From NCBI RefSeq assembly GCF_900537995.1, contig NZ_LR027880.1, forward strand, positions 1,186,001 to 1,250,000: a stretch of DNA of 64,000 nucleotides. Reading direction: 5' to 3'. Origin of the DNA: Roseburia intestinalis L1-82 (lineage in GTDB: Bacteria > Bacillota > Clostridia > Lachnospirales > Lachnospiraceae). The notes beneath the pieces are model-generated. The model worked only from the letters and a program-made list of their open reading frames with translations, made no database searches and was not told the origin of the DNA. Positions 35,675 to 45,691 of this stretch are shown in pieces. The position numbers were made by a program, and so were the translations under genes. Within the stretch, counting starts at the first letter, position 1; the number at the start of each line of letters is the position of its first letter.

Positions 35675-36792
35675 GGGATTATTTAAAACACTACCGGGTG
35701 AAAATATGTGTATTATCCCCAGTCTATATAGGTTCCGGTGAAAAAATAGGAAAAAAAGAGCACATCTATATGCCATGGAATCATCATGTGATCATACCGA
35801 ATGTAGAGAAGATGTACATGGATCTGCAGAAAAAAGGACTCGGGAAAGAGTTTGCAGACTATATGATGGATGGGCGGCCGAAGGAACCTTCTCTATCCCA
35901 GTGGCTTGGACAGCATAAGATGCAGCGGGAAGATTATGAGAGATGGAAATTGTATGAGATGGATGCAGGGGAAGCATTTGTTTCACAGACAGCCAGACCA
36001 AAAGAGATTGAAGCCTTTGTGAAGGATGCATATGGTATGCCGTATGTTCCGGGCAGTACTTTAAAAGGCATGTTCCGCACGGCACTGATTGCAGATGAGA
36101 TACAAAAATGTCCGGAAAAATATGAAAGAACAGGCAGGGAGATACAGTCTGCTTCCGCAGAACGCGCAAGCAGGAAACAATGCCTTGCAAGAGAGACAAA
36201 ACGTTTAGAACAACAGATATTTTATACTTTAAACCGTGATGAAAAAAAGCCTGCAAATGCTGTTAATGATAATCTTTCTGGTCTGCATGTAGGTGACAGC
36301 CAGCCTATCAGTGTGGATCAGCTGACATTAAGCCAGAAGATCGATGTTACACTAGACGGTACAGAAAAACCGCTGAATGTATTGCGGGAGACACTGATCC
36401 CCGGAACAGAGATTTGCTTTGATGTATCAATTGACACGACAATCTGCCCGTATCAGATGGAAGATATCATAGAAGCACTGAATATTTTCCAGAATATCTG
36501 TAACCGGTATTTTTATGCAAGATTCCACTGGGAGGCAAAGGAAAAAAATACAGTATGGTTAGGTGGAGGATGTGGTTTTCTTTCAAAGACGGTTTTATAT
36601 CCATTGCTTGGCAGTAATGCAGTAAAAGTTGTGGATAATGTGTTTAAAAATACACTGGGAAAAAATTATATTGTGCATAAACATACCAAAGATCTGCAGC
36701 TTAAGCTGGCACCGCATGCCTGTAAGTGTACAAAGTATCAGGGAAAGCTGTATCATATGGGGATGGGGAGGATTGAATTTGAGGAAATATAA
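35671..36792 (+). CDS. csm5: Type III-A RAMP protein Csm5
   Basis: The 373-residue RAMP protein has 'VLSPVYIGSGEKI' at the start and 'PYVPGSTLKGMFRTALI' near residue 125. It caps the 3' end of the complex and is needed for crRNA maturation in Staphylococcus. It is the last gene of the first cas operon, and the leader of array 1 starts directly after its stop. A diverged, frameshifted copy of its last 145 nt lies in front of array 2. Confidence 0.94.
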   Translation: MRDYLKHYRVKICVLSPVYIGSGEKIGKKEHIYMPWNHHVIIPNVEKMYMDLQKKGLGKEFADYMMDGRPKEPSLSQWLGQHKMQREDYERWKLYEMDAGEAFVSQTARPKEIEAFVKDAYGMPYVPGSTLKGMFRTALIADEIQKCPEKYERTGREIQSASAERASRKQCLARETKRLEQQIFYTLNRDEKKPANAVNDNLSGLHVGDSQPISVDQLTLSQKIDVTLDGTEKPLNVLRETLIPGTEICFDVSIDTTICPYQMEDIIEALNIFQNICNRYFYARFHWEAKEKNTVWLGGGCGFLSKTVLYPLLGSNAVKVVDNVFKNTLGKNYIVHKHTKDLQLKLAPHACKCTKYQGKLYHMGMGRIEFEEI

Positions 36793-36930
36793 CAATTTTG
36801 CGCCGATAGGCTTAAAATCAGGCTTTGTGATCGGTATGATCCAGTTTGATATTGAGATTTCTCTCATTTGCGGGTTTGCCCCGCAAATGGGGGATGAAAG
36901 CCTTGTGTTTGGAGAGGTGTAAGGGACAGG
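36793..36930 (+). promoter_or_regulatory. Leader of CRISPR array 1
   Basis: The 138-nt AT-rich stretch between csm5 and the first repeat contains a perfect 10-bp hairpin, CATTTGCGGG (36865-36874) with CCCGCAAATG (36880-36889). The repeat-adjacent end reads AGGTGTAAGGGACAGG. The same sequence precedes array 2 with few changes. It should hold the array promoter and the integration signals for Cas1-Cas2. Confidence 0.85.
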
Positions 36931-37674
36931 ATTGAAATATAAGAACCCCGTGGAGGGGACGAGAACGGTAGCTTTTTATTTGATGCTGCAGGTTTTGAAG
37001 ATTGAAATATAAGAACCCCGTGGAGGGGACGAGAACAAAACATCAATATCAGCGTGTAAGTCCTCAAGTATTGAAATATAAGAACCCCGAGGAGGGGACG
37101 AGAACTCCGCGACAGCTCTGCAAAAAAATCATATCCCGGATTGAAATATAAGAACCCCGTTGAGGGGACGAGAACATATTCTCCCTTCTGTGCAATAAAA
37201 AAGACAGCCTAATTGAAATATAAGAACCCCGAGGAGGGGACGAGAACTAGATCCGTGATGGTGTTTTAGCTTTTGCAATTTCGTATTGAAATATAAGAAC
37301 CCCGAGGAGGGGACGAGAACTTGCCTGACTTATCTGTATAGTTAAAATCGGAGAATTATTGAAATATAAGAACCCCGAGGAGGGGACGAGAACCTGTCTC
37401 AGGAACTTTTCATCCGACTGGTCTAAACGGATTGAGATAAGAGAACCCCGAGGAGGGGACGAGAACTGACGCATTTCTTCTATTGTTGGCATAGTTGTTA
37501 TTGAGATAAGAGAACCCCGAGGAGGGGACGAGAACACTTCCTGAATTTCAGTCTTAGGAACTTCTACATAAAATTGAGATAAGAGAACCCCGAGAAGGGG
37601 ACGAGAACCTTTAGCTGTTTTTGTTATATACTTACACAAGTATAATTGAAAAAATTTCCACTAAGGGGACAAAT
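36931..37674 (+). CRISPR. CRISPR array 1: ten 36-bp repeats, ten spacers, degenerate end repeat
   Basis: Repeats start at 36931, 37001, 37070, 37140, 37212, 37285, 37358, 37431, 37500 and 37573. A degenerate terminal copy starts at 37645. Spacers are 33-37 nt and all differ. Repeats 1-7 begin ATTGAAATATAAGA; repeats 8-10 begin ATTGAGATAAGAGA. The centre CCCCG(T/A/TT)GGAGGGG-type core forms a short hairpin. The last eight bases, ACGAGAAC, match the known type III crRNA handle, which fixes transcription to the plus strand. The last regular repeat has AAGGGG in place of AGGGG, and the terminal one keeps only ATTGAAA and AAGGGGAC. Confidence 0.98.
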
Positions 37675-39050: not shown

Positions 39051-39070
39051 TATGACAAAAGATATATTAT

Positions 39071-39216
39071 AAATACACTGGGCAGAAATTATGTTGTGCA
39101 TAAACATACCAAAGACCTGCAGCTTAAACTGGCACCGCATGTCTGTAAATGTACAAAGTATCAGGGAAAGCTGTATCATATGGGGATGGGGGAGGATTGA
39201 ATTTGAGGAAATATAA
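39071..39216 (+). pseudogene. Copy of the 3' end of csm5, frameshifted
   Basis: This 146-nt stretch matches 36648-36792, the last 145 nt of csm5, with about eight substitutions and one inserted G in the run near 39187-39192. The same stop context (GAGGAAATATAA) ends both copies. It has no start codon or ribosome site, so it is a relic. It lies directly upstream of the leader of array 2, exactly as intact csm5 does for array 1. Confidence 0.9.
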
Positions 39217-39354
39217 TGATTTTGCTCCGATAGGCTTAAAATCAGGCTTTGAGAATGTTATACACCAGTTTGATATTGAGATTTCTCTCATTTGCGGGTT
39301 TGCCCCGCAAATGGGGGATAAAAGCCTTGTGTTTTGGGAGGTGTAGGGGACAGG
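39217..39354 (+). promoter_or_regulatory. Leader of CRISPR array 2
   Basis: The 138-nt sequence parallels the array 1 leader, differing at about fifteen positions by eye, most of them in the first 50 nt. The hairpin CATTTGCGGG (39289-39298) with CCCGCAAATG (39304-39313) is unchanged, and the repeat-adjacent end reads AGGTGTAGGGGACAGG. Confidence 0.85.
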
Positions 39355-40243
39355 ATTGAGATAAGAGACCCCCGTAGAGGGGACGAGAATTGCACAGCGT
39401 ATGGAAAATCGGATTTACCGTTATATTGAGATAAGAGACCCCCGTAGAGGGGACGAGAATGTACTGTTTGCCATTCCTAGAGTGACAAGCAAAAGATTGA
39501 GATAAGAGCCCCCCGTAGAGGGGACGAGAATTCCACCGCCTTCCTAGTTATAGTATAGCGGATTTAATTGAGATAAGAGCCCCCCGTAGAGGGGACGAGA
39601 ATACGAAAGTACAACAGTGTGAGGCGCACTAGGTAAGATTGAGATAAGAGCCCCCCGTAGAGGGGACGAGAATATGGTGAATATAGTGCGTTCATGTATC
39701 AATGGCAGATTGAGATAAGAGACCCCCGTAGAGGGGACGAGAATGTTCCAAATCTGCTTGCCACATTCGTCACGGTCATATATTGAGATAAGAGACTCCC
39801 GTAGAGGGGACGAGAATTCCAAGTCGTTGTTACTTGACTTGTTTAAAGTGTAATTGAGATAAGAGACCCCCGTAGAGGGGACGAGAACCTATGCACTATT
39901 CTTTTATTGTATCAAGTTCTGTATTGAGATAAGAGACCCCCGTAGAGGGGACGAGAACTCTACATAACAGTCGCAAATACGGGAAAATGTGCAGTCATTG
40001 AGATAAGAGATCCCCGTGGAGGGGACGAGAACGTAAAGCCTTTATTCAATTATCAATGTACTTGAGAATTGAGATATAAGACCCCCGAGAAGGGGACGAG
40101 AACCAGATGGGTTTGATTTTTCTTGCATCTTCCTGAATTGAGATAAGAGACCCCGAGGAGGGGACGAAAACTTGAAAACCTGCCCCGGATAAATCAAATT
40201 AGGGTTTACTGAGATATAAGAACCCCGCTAAGGGGACAAAATT
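39355..40243 (+). CRISPR. CRISPR array 2: thirteen repeats (last degenerate), twelve spacers
   Basis: Repeats start at 39355, 39425, 39496, 39567, 39638, 39709, 39782, 39853, 39923, 39997, 40068, 40137 and 40208. Spacers are 33-38 nt and none repeats or matches array 1 by eye. Leader-side repeats begin ATTGAGATAAGAGA and end in ACGAGAAT. From the eighth repeat on they end in ACGAGAAC. Repeats 3-5 have GAGCCCCCCG, repeat 7 GAGACTCCCG. The twelfth has lost one C (35 nt) and ends ACGAAAAC. The last one starts ACTGAGAT and keeps CTAAGGGGACAAA. Confidence 0.98.
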
Positions 40244-40310
40244 AGAATAAATTTTTACTAAATAACCATGCAGGAAAATTAAATCATTATTACGAAAGAT
40301 GGAGATTATT

Positions 40311-41654
40311 ATGAATCAGACGATATTGTTTACACCAGTGGGAGGAACCGACCCGATTTCATTAAATAATTATCATGATGGATCAATACTGCATATTTGC
40401 AGATTCTATAAACCGGATAAAGTCATTTTGTACATGTCAAAAGAGATGTTGGATTTTCAGGAGAAAGATGACAGGTATCGTTATTGTCTGGACCGTCTGG
40501 CAAAGATGCAGGATCGTCCCATGATTTATGAGATCATAGAACGCCGGGAGCTTACCAAAGTACATGAATTTGATTATTTTTACGAGGATTTCAGGAAGGT
40601 GATCAGCCATATATATGAGACGATGGATGATTCAGATACACTGCTTTTAAATGTGTCATCCGGTACACCGGCAATGAAAAGTGGATTGCTGGTATTGCAG
40701 ACATTAGGGGAGTTTCCTGCAAAAGTAATTCAGGTGGCGACACCAGTAGGAAAATTGAATGAGCAGGTGCATGAGGGATATGATGTAGAAACTTTATGGG
40801 AATTGGATGAGGATAATCAGGAAGGTGCACAAAACAGATGTAAGGAAATACAGTGTCCGACACTTTCAAAGATAAAGAAAGAGGAAATTATAAAAAAACA
40901 TATTTTGGTATATGATTATCAGGCTGCGCTTGATGTTGCGGATTCATTACCGGCAGAGCAGACAGTGCAGTACAGGGATTTAATTTATCAGGCTGCAAGG
41001 AGAGTGTTATTAGATTTTGTGAATGTGGATAAGACAATCCAGAAAACAAATTTTCAATGTCTGCCGGTGCGGTATTCTTCCCAGAGAAAATATTTTGAAT
41101 ATGCACTTACGATCGATATTCGATTAAAACGTGGTGAGTATGTGGATTTTATCAGGTCGATCACACCGATTGTAGTAGATTTGTTTGAAATGATATTAAA
41201 AAAACAATGTGGCATCATAGTAGACGATTATTGCGACCAGTATAAACGTGCCGGACAGTGGAAGAGGATGTGGTCAGCAAAAAAATTAAATGGAACGGAA
41301 GTAGGAAAAGTACTGAATAGTCATTATCAGAAAATGGAAAAAAGATTTGAAGCAAAAGATGTGTATTCAGAACATCTAAAAATACTCACAGATCATTTTT
41401 CGAGTGATACCCGCTTAAAACAGTTGATGGAAGATCTTAGAAATGTGGAAAGTAATATCCGGAATCTTGCTGCGCATGAGATTGTGTCTGTGACAGATGA
41501 GACAATTAAAAACCTGACAGGTTTTTATGGCAGGGATATCATGAGTAAGATCAAGGAGCTTTTTGGATATACGGAGATTTCCATACGAAAAGGGTATTGG
41601 GATTCTTACGATGAAATGAACAGGAAAATCCTTGAGCAGATGTCAAATGAATAA
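40311..41654 (+). CDS. csm6: CRISPR ancillary ribonuclease Csm6 (CARF-HEPN)
   Basis: The protein has about 447 residues from ATG 40311, six bases after GGAG; ATG 40299 is an alternative. The N-terminal CARF domain has FTPVGGTDPIS at the start and LNVSSGTPAMKSG near residue 115, which bind cyclic oligoadenylate. The C-terminal HEPN domain carries RNLAAH (Arg384, His389), the R-X4-H ribonuclease motif. Once Cas10 has made the signal, Csm6 cuts RNA non-specifically. It lies 67 nt after array 2 without an obvious promoter of its own, so read-through from the array or a weak local promoter is likely. Confidence 0.94.
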   Translation: MNQTILFTPVGGTDPISLNNYHDGSILHICRFYKPDKVILYMSKEMLDFQEKDDRYRYCLDRLAKMQDRPMIYEIIERRELTKVHEFDYFYEDFRKVISHIYETMDDSDTLLLNVSSGTPAMKSGLLVLQTLGEFPAKVIQVATPVGKLNEQVHEGYDVETLWELDEDNQEGAQNRCKEIQCPTLSKIKKEEIIKKHILVYDYQAALDVADSLPAEQTVQYRDLIYQAARRVLLDFVNVDKTIQKTNFQCLPVRYSSQRKYFEYALTIDIRLKRGEYVDFIRSITPIVVDLFEMILKKQCGIIVDDYCDQYKRAGQWKRMWSAKKLNGTEVGKVLNSHYQKMEKRFEAKDVYSEHLKILTDHFSSDTRLKQLMEDLRNVESNIRNLAAHEIVSVTDETIKNLTGFYGRDIMSKIKELFGYTEISIRKGYWDSYDEMNRKILEQMSNE

Positions 41655-41711: not shown

Positions 41712-41753
41712 TTGACATGAAATATTTAGAAACATATAATGTGATTGGAGGTG
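41712..41753 (+). promoter_or_regulatory. Perfect-consensus promoter of the AAA-HEPN pair
   Basis: TTGACA (41712-41717), 17 bases, TATAAT (41735-41740) is an exact sigma-A consensus. The expected start point near 41747 coincides with the ribosome site GGAGGTG (41747-41753), so the mRNA leader would be only about 13 nt. Confidence 0.9.
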
Positions 41754-41759
41754 TGGGAT

Positions 41760-42998
41760 ATGTTACTTGAATTTTCATGCAGTAATTATAAGGCAATTAA
41801 GGAGAAAATAGTATTTTCCATGGTTGCAGGAAGTGATAAATCACATCAGGAAGAATTGTATGAATTTGATGATTACCGGGTGTCAAGAATCACATCTGTA
41901 TATGGTGCAAATGGTGCTGGAAAAAGTACATTGATTGATGCGGTAGGGTATCTAGGCTTTTTGGTGAGGGAATGTGTGAAATTTCAGGAAGGAGATAAGA
42001 TTCCGAGAACACCACATAAACTTTCAGCAGAGAAACCGACAGCGTTTGATATTCAGTTTGTTGTGGATGGAATACGTTATGCGTATGGATTTTCCATGAA
42101 TGATGTTGAGTTTCTGGATGAGTATTTGTATCATTTTCCATCTGGAAGACAGGCGAAGATATTTGAACGTGAAGGTACAAAGTTTTCATATGGAATAAAG
42201 TATAAGAAAGAACTGTCTCAACTGGAGAGTAAGACAAAAAGTAATAAATTATTTCTGACTACGGCAGAAGCGTGGTGCAGTTTAAAGGAAATCATTCATC
42301 CTTTCAGGTTTTTTAAAGAAGAATTGATTGTTCATGGAATTGGACCTGATAATTGGTTTGAATACTCTGCAGAACAGATTCGGACAAATTCTGGTATGAA
42401 ACAAATATTAGTTGTGTTCATGCAAAAAATAGGAATTCCAATTAAGGATATCCAGGTAAAAATAGAAAACAGACAATTGACAACACAGGATATGCCGCTT
42501 GAATTATTAAATAAGGTCCAGATGTTAACTGGTATGGGTTCATTGCAGACAATAGAAGTAAAGTTTGTATATAAAGATTATATTTTGAATATCAATGAGG
42601 AGTCACAGGGAACACAGAAACTTTTTAAATTGCTATGTCCGTTTATAGATGTGCTAGTCAATGGAAAAGTGTTATTTTATGATGAACTTGAAGCTAGTCT
42701 CCACCCTGCACTTGTAGATGAATTAATCCACACATTTAAAAACTGGAAAAGTGAAAAAAATCCACAATTAATTTTTTCCTCCCATGATACAAGTTTGTTG
42801 GATCTGGATTTATTCCGCAGAGATCAAATATGGTTTGCAGAAAGAAATCCCAGGTTGTGCACGACAGAGTATTATTCTTTAGTGGAATTGAAAAATGTCA
42901 GAAAGGATGACAATATAAAAAAAGGATATATCAATGGTCGATATTCGACAATTCCGTTAAAGGGAAGCAGTTTGATCGAAGTTTTGGGAGGTGAATAA
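41760..42998 (+). CDS. AAA family ATPase (AAA15/RloA-like), probable defence protein
   Basis: The protein has about 412 residues from ATG 41760, behind GGAGGTG. It has an ABC/SMC-type ATPase fold like RloA and OLD family ATPases: EFSCSNYKAIKEKI start, Walker A GANGAGKST (49-57), a helical insert, Walker B LFYDELE (Asp308-Glu309) and the switch motif FSSHD near residue 340. It lacks a Toprim or HNH domain. The partner at 43001 starts three bases after its stop and has a HEPN nuclease motif, so the two probably form a unit in which the ATPase senses infection and controls the RNase. This function is inferred from architecture and the CRISPR neighbourhood. Confidence 0.88.
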   Translation: MLLEFSCSNYKAIKEKIVFSMVAGSDKSHQEELYEFDDYRVSRITSVYGANGAGKSTLIDAVGYLGFLVRECVKFQEGDKIPRTPHKLSAEKPTAFDIQFVVDGIRYAYGFSMNDVEFLDEYLYHFPSGRQAKIFEREGTKFSYGIKYKKELSQLESKTKSNKLFLTTAEAWCSLKEIIHPFRFFKEELIVHGIGPDNWFEYSAEQIRTNSGMKQILVVFMQKIGIPIKDIQVKIENRQLTTQDMPLELLNKVQMLTGMGSLQTIEVKFVYKDYILNINEESQGTQKLFKLLCPFIDVLVNGKVLFYDELEASLHPALVDELIHTFKNWKSEKNPQLIFSSHDTSLLDLDLFRRDQIWFAERNPRLCTTEYYSLVELKNVRKDDNIKKGYINGRYSTIPLKGSSLIEVLGGE

Positions 42999-43000
42999 AT

Positions 43001-43699
43001 TTGGAACGAAAGCTAGGACTCAGTTCCAGAAATGAAAATTCCAGAAATATGTTAGTGCCGGATATGCACGTTTCAAAACTTGATGAAATGTATGAACAGT
43101 TTTGCAAAAATGTGGAAACGGTAAAAGAAAAGTTTCATATTGCAGAACAATTAGATAACGTTCATGAAGAAAAAGCAGTAAAAGATATTTATCGGTCACA
43201 GATTGTGTTTTTGGAAAGTGCACTGGATTATTATATGCATTGTCTTGGAATTTATGCGATGGTACAAATGTATAATAATCACTGGGATAAAACACGGGGA
43301 TATTCCGATTTAAAGGTGCCGATTGATAAGGTAATGGATGCTGTTATGCATCCCGAAAATACAGGGTGGATTGACGCGGTAATTGTGTCTTACCATGCAT
43401 CAAAAACATATATGAGTGCGAAAGAGATTAAGGGGCAGTTATCATTAATTGTTGGAAAAGATTTTTTTGATAAAATAGCAAATGAAATGTTTTATGACAA
43501 GGAGAGCAGAGTGAAACCAGCAGACAAATTGGCAAGAGCATTGACAGATTTGTTTGAACGCAGAAACAAGATAGCACATCAGGCAGATAGAAATCACCAG
43601 ACGGGAGATTTGTATGATATTAACCGGCAGGATGTGGAAAATGCAATAGGTGTTGTTGAAACATTTGTTACAACTGTTCATAAGTTATTAACGGAATAA
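43001..43699 (+). CDS. HEPN domain protein with R-X4-H ribonuclease motif, partner of the AAA ATPase
   Basis: The 232-residue protein starts at TTG 43001, seven bases after GGGAGGTG; no better start is visible. Its helical fold ends with ERRNKIAHQAD, an R-X4-H motif (Arg188, His193) expected of an active HEPN RNase. The overall layout resembles RiboL-PSP-HEPN/MAE_28990-type proteins, which often pair with ATPases in defence islands. It lacks a CARF or other sensor domain, consistent with dependence on the ATPase. It is closed by a strong terminator. Its target and trigger are unknown. Confidence 0.82.
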   Translation: MERKLGLSSRNENSRNMLVPDMHVSKLDEMYEQFCKNVETVKEKFHIAEQLDNVHEEKAVKDIYRSQIVFLESALDYYMHCLGIYAMVQMYNNHWDKTRGYSDLKVPIDKVMDAVMHPENTGWIDAVIVSYHASKTYMSAKEIKGQLSLIVGKDFFDKIANEMFYDKESRVKPADKLARALTDLFERRNKIAHQADRNHQTGDLYDINRQDVENAIGVVETFVTTVHKLLTE

Positions 43700-43715: not shown

Positions 43716-43748
43716 AAAAAAGCAAGGGACAACATCCCTTGCTTTTTT
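43716..43748 (+). terminator. Terminator closing the defence island
   Basis: AAAAGCAAGGGA (43717-43728) and TCCCTTGCTTTT (43735-43746) pair around a short loop with T residues following. It marks the end of the AAA-HEPN unit. Confidence 0.9.
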
Positions 43749-43845: not shown

Positions 43846-44907
43846 ATGGAAAAAGTAAAGGCATTTTGTAAAAGGAAAAATATTGAGATATCCGTCAAAC
43901 GCTACCTGATTGATGCACTTGGTGCGATGGCACAGGGATTATTTGCATCGCTTTTGATCGGAACGATCATCAGTACACTTGGAACGCAGCTTAATATTCC
44001 GATTCTTGTGACAGTCGGGACTTACGCGAAAGCGGCAGTCGGACCGGCAATGGCGATCGCAATCGGATATGCACTGCAGGCAGCGCCTTTAGTACTGTTT
44101 TCACTTGCGGCAGTCGGTGCGGCGGCAAATGAACTTGGCGGGGCAGGTGGGCCGCTTGCGGTACTTGTGGTTGCAATTTTTGCAGCAGAATTCGGAAAAG
44201 CAGTTTCCAAAGAGACAAAAATCGATATTATTGTCACTCCGTTTGTGACCATTTTTGTCGGGGTCGCGCTTTCTATCTGGTGGGCTCCGGCGATCGGTGC
44301 GGCAGCGAGTGCAGTCGGTAATGCGATCATGTGGGCAACCGAGCTGCAGCCGTTTTTCATGGGAATCATTGTATCTGTGATCGTCGGGATTGCACTGACA
44401 CTGCCGATCAGCAGCGCAGCAATCTGTGCAGCACTTGGACTGACCGGATTAGCCGGTGGTGCAGCACTTGCCGGATGCTGTGCGCAGATGGTCGGATTTG
44501 CAGTGGCAAGTTTCCGTGAAAATAAATGGGGCGGATTGTTTGCACAGGGAATCGGTACATCCATGCTTCAGATGGGTAATATCGTGAAAAATCCGCGCAT
44601 CTGGCTGCCGGCGACATTGGCGTCTGCAATCACCGGACCGATCGCAACGTGTCTGTTCCATTTACAGATGAATGGTGCAGCAGTTTCCTCCGGTATGGGA
44701 ACCTGTGGACTGGTCGGACAGATTGGTGTCTATACCGGATGGATCGCAGATATTGAAGCGGGAAGCAAAGCTGCCATTACACCGATGGACTGGATCGGAC
44801 TGATTTTCGTAAGCTTTCTTCTGCCGGGCGTTTTATCATGGCTTTTTAGTGTGTTATTCCGTAAGATCGGCTGGATCAAAGAAGGCGATATGAGGCTGGA
44901 CTTATAA
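43846..44907 (+). CDS. PTS EIIC-like membrane protein (PTS_EIIC_2 type)
   Basis: The 353-residue protein has about ten hydrophobic, Gly- and Ala-rich segments and matches the EIIC-like family found alone in many Firmicutes. It begins 'NIEISVKRYLIDALGAMAQGLFASLLIGTI', a recognised start for this group. No EIIA, EIIB or HPr gene is nearby, so it may not act as a true phosphotransferase permease; transport of an unidentified solute is possible. It stands alone between terminators and the alarmone synthetase promoter. Confidence 0.85.
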   Translation: MEKVKAFCKRKNIEISVKRYLIDALGAMAQGLFASLLIGTIISTLGTQLNIPILVTVGTYAKAAVGPAMAIAIGYALQAAPLVLFSLAAVGAAANELGGAGGPLAVLVVAIFAAEFGKAVSKETKIDIIVTPFVTIFVGVALSIWWAPAIGAAASAVGNAIMWATELQPFFMGIIVSVIVGIALTLPISSAAICAALGLTGLAGGAALAGCCAQMVGFAVASFRENKWGGLFAQGIGTSMLQMGNIVKNPRIWLPATLASAITGPIATCLFHLQMNGAAVSSGMGTCGLVGQIGVYTGWIADIEAGSKAAITPMDWIGLIFVSFLLPGVLSWLFSVLFRKIGWIKEGDMRLDL

Positions 44908-45031: not shown

Positions 45032-45691
45032 ATGGAAAAGCCATTCACCTTAAGTGAGGGCGTTGACAGTTGGAATACGATTATTTTTTTATATAATTCC
45101 GCATTGAAGGAAGTACGCACAAAAGTTGAAATCTTAAACGATGAGTTTCAGCAGGTACATCAGTACAACCCAATAGAATATATCAAGTCAAGGATCAAGA
45201 CGCCTGAGAGCATTGTGAAAAAGTTAAAGCGCTACGGATATGAGTCGTCGATCGACAATATGGTTAATTATGTCAATGACATTGCAGGTATCCGTATTGT
45301 CTGTTCTTTTACTTCTGATATTTATAAACTGGCTGAGATGATCGGGAAACAGAACGATCTGACCGTTATTTCCATCAAGGATTATATTAAAAATCCAAAG
45401 GAGAGCGGTTATAAAAGTTATCATATGCTTGTGACTGTTCCGATATTTTTATCGGACTGCGTGATCGATACCAAGGTGGAGATACAGATCCGGACGATGG
45501 CGATGGATTTCTGGGCAAGCTTAGAGCATAAGATCTATTACAAATTTGAGGGAAATGCGCCCGGCTATATCAGCAGGGATCTAAGAGAATGTTCCGATAT
45601 TGTTTCTATGCTGGATGCAAAGATGCTCCAGCTAAATGAAGCAATCATACAGGCGAAAGAAGCACAGGAGGAGCAGACGGGTGCAGTATAA
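45032..45691 (+). CDS. Small alarmone synthetase, (p)ppGpp synthetase RelP/RelQ type
   Basis: The 219-residue protein has only the RelA/SpoT synthetase domain: 'SIVKKLKRYGYESSIDNMVNYVNDIAGIRIVCSF' and 'EIQIRTMAMDFWASLEHKIYYK'. No hydrolase, TGS or ACT domain is present. It makes (p)ppGpp from ATP and GDP or GTP under its own transcriptional control rather than by ribosome sensing. AAGGAGG precedes ATG 45032. Its last 11 bases overlap the EAL gene start at 45681, so the two are co-translated. Confidence 0.93.
   Translation: MEKPFTLSEGVDSWNTIIFLYNSALKEVRTKVEILNDEFQQVHQYNPIEYIKSRIKTPESIVKKLKRYGYESSIDNMVNYVNDIAGIRIVCSFTSDIYKLAEMIGKQNDLTVISIKDYIKNPKESGYKSYHMLVTVPIFLSDCVIDTKVEIQIRTMAMDFWASLEHKIYYKFEGNAPGYISRDLRECSDIVSMLDAKMLQLNEAIIQAKEAQEEQTGAV

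Follow-up and report, generated by a model that had tools for sequence, protein, structure and literature searches.

Two adjacent genes on the forward strand of Roseburia intestinalis L1-82 encode an ABC ATPase and a HEPN-domain protein; their positions are given here within the window, by which we mean the whole 64-kb stretch of DNA that was analysed. The ATPase gene (41760-42998, +; ATG start at 41760, stop codon at 42996-42998) encodes a 412-aa protein of the AbiLi family of ABC ATPases (Pfam AAA_21), and the HEPN gene (43001-43699, +; TTG start at 43001, stop codon at 43697-43699) encodes a 232-aa RiboL-PSP-HEPN protein that carries an R188-H193 motif and, judging from its sequence, is a probable RNase. 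Ribosome-binding sites (GGAGG) can be read from the sequence at 41747..41751 (+) for the former gene and at 42988..42992 (+), within the 3' end of the ATPase gene, for the latter. The initial annotation had described a two-gene unit at this place; both ORFs are indeed present, and their order and strand are kept in 42 of 55 related loci, but the gap between them, on the same strand, is 2 bp and not the three bases then reported.

A sigma-70-type promoter (TTGACA-17-TATAAT, 41712-41740, +) that agrees with the consensus at 12/12 positions precedes the ATPase gene, and it is the sole exact match in the 64 kb when spacings of 16-18 bases are allowed (chance expectation, 0.10). Only 19 bases separate its -10 box from the ATPase ATG, so that the leader of the ATPase mRNA would be very short. 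Past the HEPN gene lies a terminator hairpin with a stem of 14 bp (43716-43748, +; -18.5 kcal/mol, z -4.5), which is absent from the list rendered by a consensus terminator scan, presumably because its T run sits within the stem. These two elements bear out the earlier statement that the pair has a promoter and a terminator of its own. No match to Rfam was found at gathering scores in the whole window. Beyond the terminator, the first ORF (43846-44907) looks by eye like a membrane protein, and further on a 219-aa protein (45032-45691) resembles, also by eye, a small (p)ppGpp synthetase and matches the PADLOC candidate PDC-S33 at 2e-24.

On the other side of the pair, csm6 (40299-41654, +; NCBIfam cas_csm6, 5.4e-152) ends 105 bp upstream of the ATPase gene on the same strand and was judged to be a neighbour outside the pair. 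It is read as the last gene of a type III-A locus, of which we take other ORFs to be cas6, cas10, csm2-5, cas1 and cas2. The consensus scan listed no terminator on the + strand between the end of csm6 (41654) and the promoter of the pair, and transcription may run on from csm6 into the pair. Within the CRISPR locus, about 323 bp comprising the csm5 3' end and the leader are duplicated with 91% identity (36644-36965 and 39067-39389), one copy ahead of each CRISPR array, and the repeats of the second array (39360-40250) decay, by eye, toward the csm6 end.

The ATPase bears a Walker A motif (GANGAGKS), an ABC-signature-like ESQG, a Walker B motif (LFYDE) and the sequence FSSHD, whose key residues are conserved across the family, so the Walker A, Walker B and FSSHD motifs announced by the initial annotation are all there. 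Its Pfam match is AAA_21 (7.8e-32), and in PADLOC it matches AbiLi (PDLC02335) with an E value of 8.4e-82, in agreement with the RloA-like character attributed to it before; the AriA model also matches (1.7e-33), far less well. An AlphaFold2 model (pLDDT 86.3), the longest helix of which has about 20 residues, was found with VIA-align 2 to be nearest to Rad50/SMC heads and then to PtuA of retrons and Septu. AriA structures are absent among the best 50 rows of that comparison, which says nothing against kinship, and a sequence search of solved structures gave a best E of only 0.15. The protein is therefore a Rad50/SMC-like ABC-type ATPase of the AbiLi family, not an AAA+ protein, and the class named in the initial annotation has to be corrected.

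As to the partner, its assignment to HEPN holds: it matches RiboL-PSP-HEPN (PF18735) above the gathering score (5.8e-8), and with its AlphaFold2 model (pLDDT 85.8) HEPN or HEPN-like entries occupy ranks 1-9 in VIA-align 2, with LsoA and Csm6 lower, although the Z of 9.0 is a level that helical proteins may reach by chance and would be unconvincing alone. A Foldseek search with the same model gave no hits at E<=0.001, the sequence matched nothing at E<=10 among solved structures, and neither a PADLOC 2.0.0 family at E<=1 nor a significant NCBIfam family was found. Both marks of the HEPN superfamily, a conserved R-X4-6-H motif and the HEPN fold, are present. Among 32 homologues, 27 could be aligned, after dropping P0002, P0005, P0010, P0016 and P0032 as fragments, chimera or remote sequences, and R187, R188, N189, H193, Q194 and D196 are invariant in 27/27, as are R65, Q67, D76 and H80 in the second long helix. 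The R-X4-H motif (R188, H193) described earlier is thus intact and conserved, each of the two residues being retained also in 40 of 41 locus pairs; the exception may be L035, which has a broken HEPN frame. These features make the protein a probable RNase. Some near-identical variants depart from the complete gene: P0005 (42 member sequences) begins inside the gene, P0010 has its end replaced by what looks by eye like a recombinase sequence, and P0002 has an internal deletion. Truncated or recombinase-interrupted genes such as P0005 and P0010 would fit a costly effector, but there are other explanations, for instance contig ends. A search of 50,697 phage records with the HEPN sequence gave a single weak match, and 72,556 plasmid records gave no match; on viral contigs, the single protein rendered no hits and the HEPN alignment two loci.

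The initial annotation had proposed counting how often homologues are neighbours, and this was done from both genes. A search that started from HEPN rendered 53 genome loci and 2 viral-contig loci, and in 42 of these 55 an ATPase 37-70% identical to ours lies directly upstream on the same strand (the ATPase frame is broken in L026 and the HEPN frame in L035 and L049). The remaining 13 (L041-L048, L050-L054) are remote (20-32% identity) or partial matches, two of which, L053 and L054, are too short to judge. Searches that started from the ATPase, carried out over overlapping sets of 295, 391, 398 and 397 genomes, gave 74 distinct loci with DNA. In the 397-genome search, 24 of 54 listed places gave no locus; one of them is a second piece of the gene of L121, and the other 23 all score at or below 121.2 bits and lie outside the 74. 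The phmmer scores of these loci fall into two groups, at least 346 bits and at most 247 bits, and the partner changes with the score. The HEPN gene is found downstream in 11/11 high-scoring loci, our own genome included (frame broken or partial in L106, L108 and L109); six of them are the same DNA as loci found through HEPN, a seventh is the window itself, and L061, L063, L106 and L109 are new cases. By contrast, HEPN is found in none of the 63 low-scoring loci, 54 of which have RloB instead, as a match in 52 (several of them short, split, or truncated where the contig ends) and as a fragment only in L067 and L098 (the latter at E 0.005). No partner was recognised in the other nine (L065, L072, L105, L117, L120, L122, L124, L126, L128). 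The RloB profile was built from nine proteins confirmed by a Pfam scan of 10 downstream proteins, the tenth being a small protein of L065 without a significant match, and 10/10 RloB proteins scanned against PADLOC matched AbiLii. The RloB-paired sister ATPases are mostly about 29-37% identical to ours. Paired genes overlap or nearly abut across the loci, and ATPase and HEPN are separate ORFs in the window as well as in the paired loci. The pairwise distances among the ATPases correlate with those among the HEPN proteins (r 0.895 over 41 pairs, 3 of 44 having been left out for HEPN ORFs <180 aa), a value that 0 of 5000 permutations equalled. ATPase and HEPN protein constitute a genuine two-gene family, whose partnership is exclusive in those loci that were examined.

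The genes next to the pair differ from locus to locus. In a set of 141 neighbours from 41 loci (ORFs <130 or >900 aa, and loci L001 and L026, left out), no family among those listed (25 of 132 for PADLOC, 25 of 149 for Pfam) had more than 3 matches for PADLOC or 4 for Pfam. Four of 29 evenly spaced members of this set matched PADLOC at 1e-15 (PDC-S03, NucC-like, AbiLi, MzaA), against 2 of 20 window genes used as a control, so that in this small sample no enrichment of defence genes near the pair is seen, and the argument from defence islands that had been put forward does not carry over to these loci.

A tree of 85 ATPases (44 paired with HEPN, 35 paired with RloB and 6 without a partner label; ATPases <380 aa and exact duplicates left out) separates the 44 HEPN-paired rows from the other 41 by a branch with support 100/100. 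Since most HEPN rows had been found through HEPN, it is the loci reached from the ATPase that bear out exclusive pairing within the clade. The HEPN arrangement is likely the derived one with respect to RloB; midpoint rooting and the length of several RloB rows preclude a firmer statement. Sixteen ATPase positions are fixed in at least 93% of the HEPN group and show the same residue in at most 20% of the RloB group. The HEPN-paired clade comprises Bacillota together with metagenome-assembled genomes labelled Treponema, Fibrobacter, Ruminobacter and Gastranaerophilales, labels that may reflect mis-binning. Within the genus, the HEPN gene occurs in 3 of 60 genomes (our own, G026 and G052), and the pair is therefore accessory.

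Because the HEPN-paired ATPases form one side of the branch and their sisters go with RloB/AbiLii Toprim proteins, the pair is, as far as sequences tell, an effector-swapped sister of AbiL. AbiL (AbiLi and AbiLii, or RloA-RloB) has an ATPase of the same family, and its RloB-paired representatives show the same gene order and close spacing, but its second gene encodes a RloB/AbiLii Toprim protein and not a PF18735 HEPN. The question of a match to a named, characterised system has therefore a divided answer: the ATPase belongs to AbiL, and the HEPN partner to no PADLOC family. PARIS (AriA and AriB) also combines an OLD/ABC-type ATPase with a separate nuclease and is alike in logic, as its ATPase is a sensor that switches on a tRNA nuclease, and both ABC-Toprim systems and the sensing of Ocr by PARIS have been described (PMC12409363, PMC12839542); AriB, however, is a Toprim (DUF4435) nuclease, a match that our HEPN partner lacks in Pfam and PADLOC at E<=1. 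In RloC and PrrC a HEPN RNase is under the control of an ABC ATPase (PMC3710099), but there the two are fused into one protein that includes a Rad50-like region, instead of being encoded by two genes with a short ATPase. The ATPase fold is similar to that of PtuA of Septu (PtuA and PtuB), the effector of which is an HNH nuclease (PMC10440598), and HEPN-MNT toxin-antitoxin systems share the HEPN fold and the two-gene layout, but have a nucleotidyltransferase as antitoxin in place of an ATPase.

The nearest description is that of a network study of 2023, in which an AAA ATPase node pairs with RloB, HNH and other toxins, and in which a HEPN node receives one sentence (PMC10440598). This NetFlax combination of a D29-type AAA/ABC ATPase with an adjacent HEPN nuclease of node M61 is likened to ours by description, not by comparison of sequence clusters. 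The AbiL module and that one-sentence mention of AAA-HEPN are thus known already, and the pair with HEPN in place of Toprim looks like a little-described variant. Ribo L-PSP-HEPN domains have been described as fused to endoRNase L-PSP or in an operon with ParB, in passages that make no mention of an ABC partner (PMC3710099), and PF18735 is listed for four other defence systems (PMC10952713), three of them originating in PMC9519451. No named system, no paper and no experiment for an ATPase-HEPN pair of this kind came up in the literature searched, outside which stands a study of ABC ATPases by Krishnan et al. (2020) that possibly mentions such pairs. We regard it as quite probable that the pair represents an unnamed defence family, in which an AbiLi-type ABC sensor swapped its Toprim for a HEPN RNase once and the new pair stayed exclusive and spread among distant gut and rumen bacteria.

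With a probability of roughly 0.6, the pair would serve in defence by abortive infection or be a module akin to toxin-antitoxin systems: its AbiLi-type ABC ATPase would sense infection and restrain a HEPN RNase that replaces RloB/AbiLii. In favour of this reading are the adjacency on one strand, the single clade of HEPN-paired ATPases, the correlated distances, the RloB-paired sisters and the accessory distribution. Restraint by the ATPase and release on infection appear most likely in view of AbiL, PARIS and the AAA toxin-antitoxin pairs that have been tested. AbiL acts through abortive infection, and experiments in E. coli validated three AAA pairs as toxin-antitoxin systems; in one of them the toxin is RNase-like and blocks translation, in the other two it is a Toprim protein, and all three toxins are neutralised by AAA ATPases of the node that also holds the RloB pairs. 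The related AAA-RNase pair is described as giving no phage protection in an E. coli screen (PMC10440598). A HEPN RNase held in a retron complex and freed by a phage protein (PMC13405049) provides a parallel for restraint and release. Against the proposed module speak, besides the outcome of that E. coli screen, the missing enrichment of defence genes in the small neighbour sample, the near-absence of the HEPN sequence from the phage and plasmid records, and the Z level of the HEPN fold match. In the uninfected cell, the ATPase would bind the HEPN protein and hold it inactive. A phage-derived trigger would then act on the ATPase by changing its nucleotide state or its assembly, whereupon the HEPN dimer would become active and cleave tRNA or mRNA; with translation halted, the spread of the phage would fail.

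It could also be the case that the ATPase is an active part of a nuclease machine and no inhibitor: in the manner of Rad50 or PtuA it would load on DNA or RNA and bring the HEPN RNase to the nucleic acid of the phage, and the cell would survive the infection. The likeness of the model to Rad50/SMC heads and PtuA would fit this idea, which we nevertheless find unlikely: ATPases of related pairs neutralise the toxicity of their partners (PMC10440598), and 412 aa would leave no space for a long Rad50-like coiled coil, in line with the short helices of the model. Somewhat less likely still is a plain addiction-type toxin-antitoxin pair with no role in defence. Two overlapping or near-abutting genes, varied neighbours and the occurrence of truncated or interrupted HEPN variants would all be expected of it, but the pair is a sister of AbiL, an abortive-infection system (PMC10440598), and the HEPN sequence is absent from the plasmid records searched.

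The initial annotation had further suggested that the pair and Csm6 back each other up, which would give the pair an accessory role in the type III CRISPR system. Its place just 3' of csm6 on the same strand is what speaks for this; however, the pair has its own promoter, and when the surroundings of the 42 other pair loci were searched by tblastn with this csm6, none gave a match (flanks of at most 5 kb, often cut by contig ends, in which only close relatives of Csm6 would be detected and a remote one would escape). Among the 60 genomes of the genus, csm6 is found in our own, G014 and G042, and coincides with the HEPN gene in our own only. No CARF domain was detected in the ATPase or the HEPN protein (Pfam, E<=1) in a scan in which Csm6 was positive. 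A functional tie to Csm6 is not supported, and we consider the accessory role highly improbable.

The defence module with a restrained HEPN RNase would be a clean example, within the OLD/AbiL/PARIS group, of effectors being exchanged in nature, with one ATPase clade linked to HEPN and its sisters to Toprim. If the Toprim was replaced by HEPN in a single swap, the same ABC switch can control two nucleases that are unrelated, and sensor and effector would therefore be separable. The contrast between the HEPN and RloB sides at the 16 ATPase positions makes the recognition and restraint of the nuclease by its sensor amenable to test. Since PADLOC 2.0.0 has no match for the HEPN partner, surveys that rely on this database may overlook the pair or report it as an incomplete AbiL.

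Some further arrangements were seen around ATPases of this family. In L037 (2946-3335) and L021 (9663-10103), the HEPN pair has another, more distantly related member of the ATPase family close by; the one in L037 matches AbiLi in PADLOC. Some of the sister ATPases without a recognised partner precede a protein of about 100 aa, as in L065 (2763-3071, +), L126 (1611-1916, +) and L122 (2763-3041, on the reverse complement).
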